This document shows, one piece after another, positions 11,029 through 13,990 of a DNA stretch of 13,990 nt (position 1 is its first letter; every line of letters starts with the position of its first letter). The stretch is taken from positions 1 to 13,990 of the forward strand of contig JALGVQ010000060.1 of the NCBI GenBank assembly GCA_025774615.1, read 5' to 3'. The position numbers and the translations under genes are program-made. The stretch comes from a bacterium (GTDB taxonomy: Bacteria > Blakebacterota > Blakebacteria > Blakebacterales > Blakebacteraceae). Below the pieces are notes generated by a model. The model did no database searches. It was not told the origin of the DNA and saw nothing but the letters and a program-made list of their open reading frames with translations.

Positions 11029-12543
11029 TCAGAATTCCAGTCCGGTATCATTCGCCAGGTCGAGCAGTCCGAGGAACATCAGTTTCGCCACGTCTTCCAT
11101 GATCTCCGGAGTCAGTGTCTCGACGACATCCAGAGGATTATGATAATACGTCCGCATCCCGGGGATCCGTCCGGTGGTACCGAAACTCATGGTCCTGAAC
11201 CCTGCCCGGTTGAAAATGACCGAATCACTGCGGGGGCGGCCGGCTGATGACCGTGAGGCCGAGGTGCGCAACGTCCTGTGCAGATACATCCGGTTCGCCT
11301 CTTCAAAGTGTCGAAATACCTGCGGGTATGTCTCTCCTCCGCCTACCGACAGACCGGTACCGTGCCCCACCATGTCGAGATTGAAGTATACCACTGTCTT
11401 CTCGAGCGGGAACCGGGGGTGGGCGCAATAGTGGTAACTGCCGAGAAGCCCGCACTCTTCTCCACCGATGAAGATGAACATGATCGAGCGCTTCGGCCGC
11501 ACAGGGGAAGATGCCAGGGCGCGGGCGGCGGCAAGCATGTCGGCGCATCCTGATGCGTTATCGAGGGCACCAGGCATCACCTGGCCGAGATAACCGACCG
11601 CGTCGAGATGGCCACCCACAAGGATGACTTCATCCCTGAGCTCCGGATCAGAACCTTCGATCAGACCGATGACGTTGCATGCCTGTGAATCGGGGAGCCG
11701 CCTGATATCGGCGGTTATCGTTGCTTCCTTCCCGAGGGCCAGCGAACGGGGCTGCAGCGCGCTCCTGATCTCTTCCAGTACATCATCGTGTGTCTGACCG
11801 GTACCGAAGAAGAGGTGGTCGACCACGTGCTGGTCGATATGACAATAGACCAGGCCTTCGTTGAAGGAGGTATTGGGATTGGCAGTCTTGCCGATATAGA
11901 GCAGGCCGACAGCGCCATGTCGACGGGCGTTGTCCAGCTTGAACTGGTGATAGCTGTACGGAACCCAGTCGATGAATACATCCTCATCACCCTGGTATGG
12001 CACGGCAGCGTCTATCACGACGATCTTGCCCCGGACATCAAGTCCCGAGTAGTCATCATAGTTCAGTTCGGGAGCCGTTATGCCATATCCCACGTACACG
12101 ACTTCCCCGGTAACAGTGCCACTGTCGGAATTGGTGCCGGGATAGTAATCATCCGGGAAAGAGTACGAGAGATTCAGTTCCTCACCATCCTTCTCCATCT
12201 GCAGGGAGAGGCTTCCGGCGCTCTCGACCCGACTGTGCGGGTTGTCGAACATCTGGAAGTACGTTCCATCATCACCGTACGGCTTGACACCCCACTCCTC
12301 GAGCAGAGAGGCGACCCACCCGGCCGCCTTCATGTACTCCGGTGTGCCGGAGAGACGACCGCGGTATTTCGCGTCACTCATCTCGGTGGCATAAGAGAGG
12401 AGCTCATGACTCGAGATGGAATGGAAGACCTGCATGAGTTCCGCTGACTGGTTGCTCGCCTGTGCCTGAGCCTGTGTCTGCAAGAGACTGGTACCGGAGA
12501 GCAGAAGTATTGTAACACTGAGGAGAAACCTGATTCTTGACAT
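11029..12543 (-). CDS. Secreted M28-family zinc peptidase with PA-like insert
   Basis: From ATG 12543 it has 504 residues and begins with a clear Sec signal peptide (MSRIRFLLSVTILLLSG, with cleavage likely near AQAQA at 25-29), so it is exported. A PA-domain-like region (VVYVGYGITAPELNYDDYSGLDVRGKIVVI split across about 149-177) precedes the M28 catalytic core. The expected metal and catalytic residues are present: His312 and Asp314 in GGHLDAVG, Asp328 in LDNASG, Glu362-Glu363 in GGEECG, Asp390 in FNLDMVG, and His468 in YYHNP. The frame can be extended 26 codons upstream to an ATGA overlap with the DsrC-like gene, but that would bury the signal peptide, so I reject the extension. It acts as an aminopeptidase or carboxypeptidase on extracytoplasmic peptides; the substrate is unknown. 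It lies 74 nt after the DsrC-like stop. Confidence 0.93.
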   Translation of the reverse strand: MSRIRFLLSVTILLLSGTSLLQTQAQAQASNQSAELMQVFHSISSHELLSYATEMSDAKYRGRLSGTPEYMKAAGWVASLLEEWGVKPYGDDGTYFQMFDNPHSRVESAGSLSLQMEKDGEELNLSYSFPDDYYPGTNSDSGTVTGEVVYVGYGITAPELNYDDYSGLDVRGKIVVIDAAVPYQGDEDVFIDWVPYSYHQFKLDNARRHGAVGLLYIGKTANPNTSFNEGLVYCHIDQHVVDHLFFGTGQTHDDVLEEIRSALQPRSLALGKEATITADIRRLPDSQACNVIGLIEGSDPELRDEVILVGGHLDAVGYLGQVMPGALDNASGCADMLAAARALASSPVRPKRSIMFIFIGGEECGLLGSYHYCAHPRFPLEKTVVYFNLDMVGHGTGLSVGGGETYPQVFRHFEEANRMYLHRTLRTSASRSSAGRPRSDSVIFNRAGFRTMSFGTTGRIPGMRTYYHNPLDVVETLTPEIMEDVAKLMFLGLLDLANDTGLEF

Positions 12544-12617
12544 GATAGTTCTTTTTTTAAGGTGAGCTGTTGACTGGTGTAGTGTATCCCCAGAGCAGTG
12601 GATTTCGAATGCTGTAG

Positions 12618-13280
12618 TCATGCGAAGAACGGCAGTACGGCGATACGGCAGGCTGCCCGACGGTATCCGACATCGAAGAGTTCCCGGAATTCCTCCAGGT
12701 GAAGATCGTTCTCTCTGCAGGTCTCGATGACGGTGGGAATGTTCTTCGTCCTGGCGAAGTACGTTCTCAGATAGGCGATGATCTCCAGATGTCTTTCAGT
12801 AAGGCCCTGCTGCAGTTTCCATTCACGGATAATCAGATGAGCGAATCGTTCATTCCACTGGTCGAAGTCTGTCAGGAATCCGCGCGGGGAGAGCTTGAAT
12901 TCTTCCTGGAGAAGCGTGGATGTCTCGTACGTGAGCCAGATATTTGTCTGATACATGAAATCGTAATTGATCCCGGCGATCCTGCATGCCCCCCGATGAT
13001 AGCCGGTTGGAAAAAGGAACCTCAGATCGCTGAGTTTGAGGCTGTTGTCAGCACAGGCAAGCACCACAACCGGCACTGTCTCCTCTTCGAGAAACTTCGT
13101 CCTGAGATAATTGATGAAACTCCACTGTTCATCAGTGAGACCGCCGTAGATGCCCTGCATCATGGCCATACCTTCGGCGAACACCTCATCCCATTGATCG
13201 GGCGGATCAAGAAACCCGTGACCATCAAGGGTGTAGGTGCTGTCGCCGAAGGTCACCGATTCTGGTTCAGAAATGGTCAC
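12618..13280 (-). CDS. Tandem DsrC/TusE-like protein (two fused domains, CysB only)
   Basis: The 220-residue chain is two DsrC-like domains in a row. Domain 1 (about 12-105) reads HGFLDPPDQWDEVFAEGMA (21-39), GLTDEQWSFINYLRTKFL (47-64), then LFPTGYHRGACRIAG (89-103). Domain 2 (about 130-220) reads RGFLTDFDQWNERFA, GLTERHLEIIAYLRTYFA, then LFDVGYRRAACRIAV. In DsrC the C-terminal arm has two redox cysteines: CysB in GACKIAG and, eleven residues on, penultimate CysA. Here the CysB equivalents are Cys99 and Cys211, but domain 1 has Tyr at the CysA position and domain 2 stops after nine residues, so CysA is absent from both. Cys76 and Cys188 also occupy matching places in the two halves. The start is GTG with GGAG seven bases upstream. 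It lies 68 nt after the DsrK-like gene, DsrC's usual partner type. A relay or regulatory role is inferred. Confidence 0.85.
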   Translation of the reverse strand: MTISEPESVTFGDSTYTLDGHGFLDPPDQWDEVFAEGMAMMQGIYGGLTDEQWSFINYLRTKFLEEETVPVVVLACADNSLKLSDLRFLFPTGYHRGACRIAGINYDFMYQTNIWLTYETSTLLQEEFKLSPRGFLTDFDQWNERFAHLIIREWKLQQGLTERHLEIIAYLRTYFARTKNIPTVIETCRENDLHLEEFRELFDVGYRRAACRIAVLPFFA

Positions 13281-13348: not shown

Positions 13349-13990
13349 CTATTCGTATATGGTCCGCTCCGCAGCCTTCCCGTTGATCTTGATGGCCCTC
13401 GACAGCATGTCATGCACACCACCGACGGCATAGTCTTCGTTGTGGTATTCGACGAGCTGCATGAACTGCCTCTTGCAGTTGGAGCAGGCCGTCGCCAGAT
13501 ATTTGGCCCCGGTCGCACGCACCTGTTCTGTCTTCTTCTTGCCGGAGACGTTCATCCTGAATTCCTGGATATCGTCCATGGCTGAGAGACCACCACCACC
13601 TCCGCAACACCAGTTGTCACCACGGTTGGGGTGCATCTCACGGAAGTCTTCGCAGGAGGCATCAAGGATCACGCGGGGCGCCTCGACGATCCCGCAGCTT
13701 CTCCCGAAATTGCATGGATCGTGATAGGTCACCGGCATGGGATTCTTGCTTTTATCGAACTCGAGTTTGCCCTCCATGATCCGGTCGGCTGTCCACTCCA
13801 TGCAGTTGATGACCTCGAAGGGGAGTTCACCCCACCACTGGGCCTTTTCCATCATCATCTTCATAATCCGGTAGGCGTGGCCGCATTCACCCATGAGCAT
13901 GTACTTCACACCCAGATCGATCGCCTCATCAACATACGGCTTGTTGTCTGCCTTCATGTCGGCATCGTTGCCGGTGAAGAGACCGTAGTT
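13349..13990 (-). CDS. DsrK/HdrD-type CCG-domain iron-sulfur protein, C-terminal part (5' end outside window)
   Basis: An open frame runs from the window edge (NYGLFTGNDADMK...) to the TAG at 13349-13351, giving 213 residues; the N-terminal part, where ferredoxin-type clusters would lie, is not in view. Visible motifs (numbered from the first codon seen) are GECGHAYR with Cys36, YHDPCNFGRSCG with Cys93 and Cys99, WCCGGGGG with Cys128-Cys129, and ACSNCKRQF with Cys169 and Cys172. A VGGVHDMLSRAI tail is typical of the DsrK/HmcF/TmcB group. CCG domains bind the noncubane 4Fe-4S clusters of heterodisulfide-reductase-like subunits. In DsrMKJOP, DsrK reduces the DsrC trisulfide with quinol electrons. 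The adjacent tandem DsrC-like gene supports a DsrK-like rather than a LutA/GlpC-like assignment, but the full gene and its upstream neighbours are needed. Confidence 0.85.
   Translation of the reverse strand, partial: NYGLFTGNDADMKADNKPYVDEAIDLGVKYMLMGECGHAYRIMKMMMEKAQWWGELPFEVINCMEWTADRIMEGKLEFDKSKNPMPVTYHDPCNFGRSCGIVEAPRVILDASCEDFREMHPNRGDNWCCGGGGGLSAMDDIQEFRMNVSGKKKTEQVRATGAKYLATACSNCKRQFMQLVEYHNEDYAVGGVHDMLSRAIKINGKAAERTIYE

Follow-up and report, generated by a model that had tools for sequence, protein, structure and literature searches.

A 13,990-nucleotide stretch of DNA from a bacterium of the Blakebacterota (contig JALGVQ010000060.1 of assembly GCA_025774615.1), here called the window, carries on its minus strand a gene for a 220-residue protein with two DsrC-like domains in a row. 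The end of a dsrK gene lies just upstream. The features of the locus, with cysteines named as in canonical DsrC, are as follows.

13349..13990, minus strand: dsrK, C-terminal part, 68 bp upstream of the tandem gene; the contig ends inside the gene
13933..13990, no strand: contig overlap of 58 bp, with one mismatch, against the end of contig C260 of the same genome
12618..13280, minus strand: tandem DsrC-DsrC gene, 220 aa; GTG start at 13280, stop codon 12618-12620
12969..13247, minus strand: DsrC domain 1, residues 12-104 (PF04358, E 7e-16)
13053-13055, minus strand: C76 codon, domain 1 (17/17 orthologues)
12984-12986, minus strand: codon of CysB C99, domain 1 (17/17 orthologues)
12951-12953, minus strand: Tyr110, at the CysA position of half 1, just past the profile match
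12630..12908, minus strand: DsrC domain 2, residues 125-217 (PF04358, E 1.1e-14)
12717-12719, minus strand: C188 codon, domain 2 (16/17 orthologues)
12648-12650, minus strand: codon of CysB C211, domain 2 (17/17 orthologues)

An M28 peptidase ORF, listed at 11029-12621 on the minus strand, shares 4 bp with the end of the tandem gene, and its signal-peptide-like MSRIRFLLSV suggests that the true start is about 26 codons further in.

By profile and fold the protein is a member of the DsrC/TusE superfamily. The initial annotation had read it as two fused DsrC-like domains, and the comparison set beforehand, in which each half is searched alone, bore this out: PF04358 matches the halves with 59 and 55.2 bits, well above its cut-off of 24.9. 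TIGR03342 recognizes the whole tandem (85.7 bits, cut-off 53.5), with the single halves under that value (42.6 and 47.8 bits); the TusE model NF008562 reaches 43 bits, its cut-off being 191. An AlphaFold2 model with 45 homologues as input consists of two DsrC folds at a mean pLDDT of 86.2, and its pTM of 0.54 makes the relative placement of the domains uncertain. The closest solved structures are DsrC for residues 7-113 (Z 15.8) as well as for residues 126-220 (Z 13.4). For a DNA-binding fold only sub-threshold matches were obtained: in the profile search every DNA-binding family stays under its cut-off (LexA_DNA_bind has E 0.18-0.28), and TetR-like helices align with the model at Z 5-6, inside the chance range of the comparison tool.

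In canonical DsrC, CysA takes up sulfur, CysB closes a disulfide or trisulfide, and DsrMK(JOP) reduces the bridge (PMC3397948, PMC10504309). The CysB motif of the canonical protein, GAC[KR]xAG, is present at both C99 and C211 of the tandem. The canonical CysA is penultimate, 11 residues past CysB; in half 1 of the tandem, Tyr110 occupies this position (+11), and the chain of half 2 stops at +9. Without a CysA, the tandem cannot close the usual CysA-CysB bridge within one half. This agrees with what had been claimed from the sequence at the outset, namely that both halves keep CysB and lack CysA. The same claim listed C99 and C211 correctly but overlooked C76 and C188, through which a bridge within one domain might form.

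The search for further proteins of the same two-domain layout was productive. A scan of one genome per species (84,980 species) gave seven close orthologues, here called type A, five of them in MAGs labelled LCP-89, Calditrichaeota, Pirellulaceae, Latescibacterota and Zixiibacteriota; together with further hits, 17 type-A proteins were examined. C76, C99 and C211 occur in all 17 and C188 in 16, so that both CysB residues, whose conservation had been named as a check, are invariant. The canonical DsrC of these bacteria has a third cysteine (RKLC) that matches C76 and C188 in position. The lack of a cysteine at +11 is true of the window's protein but not of the family, since four of the 17 (in genomes G065, G168, G181 and G197) have one in half 1.

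A sister kind of tandem, type B, is found in the Zixibacteriota, where a tandem DsrC is encoded in 34 of 132 genomes. By score, seven of these are of type A and the remainder of type B, with up to five copies per genome. Half 1 of type B contains GRCPLVYETC and GACK. Half 2 has GAVK and hence no CysB, yet domain 2 retains the equivalent of C188 although valine stands in place of CysB. A strict pairing of C76 with C99 is therefore unsupported, as this domain retains only one of the two residues, and a C76 equivalent occurs in canonical DsrC as well. In a tree of 151 domains, with few columns and correspondingly rough details, all tandem domains separate from canonical and CysA-only DsrC at 100/100, and half 2 of type A groups with half 2 of type B at 99/86. 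The latter grouping fits the prediction of one old fusion, and type B shares ancestry with type A. An artefact or chance fusion is ruled out by the 17 type-A orthologues and by the separations in the tree. The architecture was not one that the initial annotation recognized, and no account of a tandem or CysB-only DsrC was found in open-access full text; the tandem family is apparently undescribed.

The window's tandem is encoded together with dsrM and dsrK: dsrK is adjacent, and dsrM and a DsrC that keeps only CysA are connected to it through the contig overlap. The dsrK fragment is recognized by the DsrK model NF045796 (E 3.4e-45, positions 236-440) and by PF02754 CCG (E 1.3e-12), and the DsrK of the cluster keeps the cysteine-rich motif CX34CCX39CXXC at about 13475-13714. 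Cysteine-rich Fe-S sites of this type reduce disulfides in related proteins (the HdrB, HdrD and DsrK families). Contig C260 (L006:10455-12382) supplies the genes on the regulator side of the cluster: the CysA-only DsrC, dsrM and the beginning of dsrK. The DsrK profile is continuous over the join (positions 18-249, then 236-441), and in G001, a genome of the same genus, the genes flanking the two contig ends are adjacent, which supports the join. The CysA-only DsrC on contig C260 of the window's genome is FPCGVARGAYRLAGLPRPFGCL.

A typical type-A cluster has the order regulator, CysA-only DsrC, dsrM, dsrK and, last, tandem DsrC. The order from the CysA-only gene to the tandem recurs on single contigs from several phyla (L033, L034, L035, L038, L122 and L123), and in L084 it is kept with an Rrf2 gene in between. 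No dsrJOP genes were seen in type-A clusters. The front of the cluster is usually occupied by a BldC/MerR-like regulator (L033, L034, L035, L038 and further genomes). Where it was inspected (L034:6394-7152, L035:4735-5691, L037:5910-6680), this regulator combines a BldC/MerR-like HTH with a receiver-like C-terminal part, and its middle part is rich in cysteine (CWEF...C..C..Y...RCYE...C...C..C.YY).

The cell's canonical DsrMKJOP/DsrC set is distinct from this cluster. Type-A genomes also encode a DsrC of the canonical, two-cysteine kind, and DsrA is over its cut-off in all of those tested except G168, which is fragmentary. A full-length canonical DsrK scoring above 700 bits occurs in nine of 11 type-A genomes tested, compared with about 350 bits for the cluster DsrK, so the cluster dsrK is a second one. 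This setting had been left out of the initial annotation; with a CysA-only DsrC and dsrMK in the cluster, a CysA could be available from outside the tandem.

The CysA-only neighbours show the opposite loss. All ten that were aligned keep the terminal CysA and have Tyr or Phe in place of CysB; a further pair of cysteines, in ICxxFPCG, is invariant among them. The cluster's CysA-only DsrC (for example L006:10455-10769, L033:3928-4242 and A4) stands as a separate clade at 100/100 with a long branch, and on this evidence is apparently a distinct, undescribed DsrC subfamily. The window's genome contains a further CysA-only DsrC of another clade (L009:9560-9874, plus strand), with a sulfide:quinone-oxidoreductase-like gene before it and a DsrE-like gene after it.

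Tandem and CysA-only genes co-occur strongly. For example, among the 132 Zixibacteriota genomes a type-A tandem is present in seven and the CysA-only FPCG gene in nine, with six common to both (Fisher P 8.8e-8, a value that ignores kinship of the genomes), and in the Latescibacterota both genes are present in exactly the same four of 80 genomes. Genomes with type B only are without the CysA-only gene. The cluster can be divided, as in G181 and G135, where CysA-only DsrC and dsrMK are on a different contig from the tandem. An obligate pair as a strict rule is ruled out by several genomes. G092, G108 and G166 have the CysA-only-dsrMK cluster without a tandem, and G065 has a tandem and no CysA-only FPCG gene. 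In G001 (MAG about 85% complete) the tandem is present with the CysA-only-dsrMK segment cleanly absent between it and IspH-YjbQ. The tandem there directly follows IspH-YjbQ (L032:8200-9200). No mirror-tree signal between tandem and CysA-only DsrC was seen in ten genomes with these short proteins (r -0.03).

The four tandems with a cysteine at +11 bear on the same question. The CysA-only gene was not found in G065 or in G168 (fragmentary), and in G197 it contains an in-frame TAG (L162, G197:C4:84631-84924). The association of the +11 cysteine with loss of the CysA-only gene (P 0.022, post hoc and likewise uncorrected for kinship) is only suggestive of a need for a CysA somewhere.

Comparison with known systems places the tandem near several of them. 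Canonical DsrC (2V4J chain C, 3OR1, 1SAU, 1YX3) has the profile, fold, CysB and DsrMK link of the tandem halves; the tandem differs in having two domains per chain, no CysA and no CysA arm, and GYxRGAC before CysB where the canonical protein has GPAKGAC. TusE and other CysA-only DsrC proteins belong to the same superfamily with the same fold and, like the tandem, keep one of the two cysteines. The pattern is reversed, however: TusE keeps CysA, and the tandem keeps CysB and is duplicated. The CysA-only DsrC of the cluster is the neighbour of the tandem, not its equivalent. RspA proteins are DsrC-like regulatory proteins without CysA and without CysB. They share with the tandem a DsrC fold lacking CysA and a possible regulatory role, and differ from it in that the tandem has CysB in both domains. 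DsrMK-only modules, with dsrMK lacking dsrJOP beside a full DsrMKJOP (PMC10504309), resemble the dsrM-dsrK pair described here. The likeness is one of gene set, and in this cluster a CysA-only DsrC and a CysB-CysB tandem are added.

The tandem lacks CysA, and its neighbour, without CysB, cannot close a CysA-CysB bridge either. With these complementary lacks, the most economical reading is that both proteins act together on the second DsrMK. We tentatively suggest, at rather less than even confidence, that the tandem is a DsrC paralogue that serves as a thiol-redox partner in the second DsrMK module and is paired with the CysA-only DsrC. The penultimate cysteine of the upstream-encoded CysA-only DsrC would be the carrier of sulfur or of a thiol, and the tandem would provide the missing CysB twice, possibly for two partners. 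On physical contact an inter-protein disulfide or trisulfide would form between them, a mixed disulfide that may or may not hold sulfur in the bridge. Membrane-bound DsrMK would then reduce this bridge at the cysteine-rich Fe-S site of DsrK, which sets the presumed direction of electron flow.

The specific form of this proposal, in which the CysA-only protein and the CysB-CysB tandem divide the two cysteines between them and the second DsrMK reduces the bridge joining them, is somewhat doubtful. Each partner is sometimes found alone, the cysteines of ICxxFPCG could serve as partners for the CysA of their own protein, and type B, which shares the ancestry of type A, has no dsrMK link. If the division is real, several little-known bacterial phyla would possess a parallel sulfur/thiol respiratory loop, and a sulfur-handling step that is normally the work of one protein may be split between two. 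In a conserved CysB-only tandem family that usually has a CysA-only neighbour, what each of the two cysteines does on its own becomes open to direct test. Where dissimilatory sulfur genes are present, a genome can hold a further dsrMK module served by a DsrC set of its own, and counts of dsrC from profile searches mix several kinds of protein.

A serious rival to such a pairing, if a somewhat unlikely one, is a redox- or sulfur-responsive adaptor or regulator. The tandem would sense thiol state through C76/C99 and C188/C211 and act on a two-component system, a transcription factor or the adjacent DsrMK or hydrogenase complex, without carrying bulk electrons or sulfur. The gene neighbourhoods lend this some weight. 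Type A adjoins PAS histidine kinases and/or a GcvH-like response regulator in G065 and G181 and histidine kinases in G135; in G061 and G026 type B has hydrogenase genes on one side and a histidine kinase on the other. The retention of the tandem alone in G001 points the same way, as does the loss of the arm that enters DsrAB. Most type-A genes, however, adjoin dsrK and not a kinase, kinases and regulators are common genes, and the absence of any DNA-binding family at cut-off in the tandem also counts against a regulator.

Less probable, and on balance unlikely, is a self-contained dithiol or persulfide carrier. The redox couple would be C76/C99 and C188/C211, or C99/C211 across the domains, reduced directly by DsrK or an HdrB-like site, and the CysA-only protein would be unneeded. 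The near-complete conservation of all four cysteines in type A speaks for it, and type B adjoins Vhu/Mvh-type and FeFe hydrogenases, relatives of which work with heterodisulfide reductases. The DsrC of D. vulgaris has also been reported to interact with FlxABCD-HdrABC (PMC10504309). But the C76/C188 equivalents in canonical DsrC show that these cysteines are not special to the tandem, the type-B domain with a C188 equivalent and no CysB shows no strict pair, and the co-occurrence with the CysA-only gene is left unexplained. In A. vinosum, DsrC without CysA bound no sulfur (PMC3397948), which also speaks against this carrier. A structural subunit or decoy, a DsrC pseudo-dimer with inherited but idle cysteines that would bind to DsrK or DsrAB and modulate how canonical DsrC gains access, would suit the two DsrC folds and the lost catalytic arm, but is improbable given that CysB is invariant in both domains of 17/17 proteins and that the fold does not require it, valine being tolerated there in type-B domain 2.

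Type-A tandem genes have next to them, at L083:2530-3303 (minus strand) and L120:1185-1976 (plus strand), response regulators with a fused GcvH-like domain of the lipoyl type. Type-B genes often stand two or three in a row (L078:10278-11705, L079:6151-7586, L080:9279-9968, L129:7541-9680). They directly follow Vhu/Mvh-type NiFe hydrogenase genes in G067 and G184, and in G061 HydABC-like FeFe hydrogenase genes come before and a histidine kinase after. This proximity to soluble hydrogenases hints, at the level of gene order, that DsrC-like proteins may take part in hydrogen metabolism or its control. In two genomes (L127:8324-10525, L137:9404-11644) type B is near a NifS-like cysteine desulfurase of about 740 aa and a Sir2-like gene. 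A type-B tandem in G026 (L021:1405-2164) is in two reading frames near a G run, either a frameshift or a sequencing error. Lastly, a 363-residue protein of the Zixibacteriota genome G107 (L130:7395-8486, minus strand) contains three DsrC domains.
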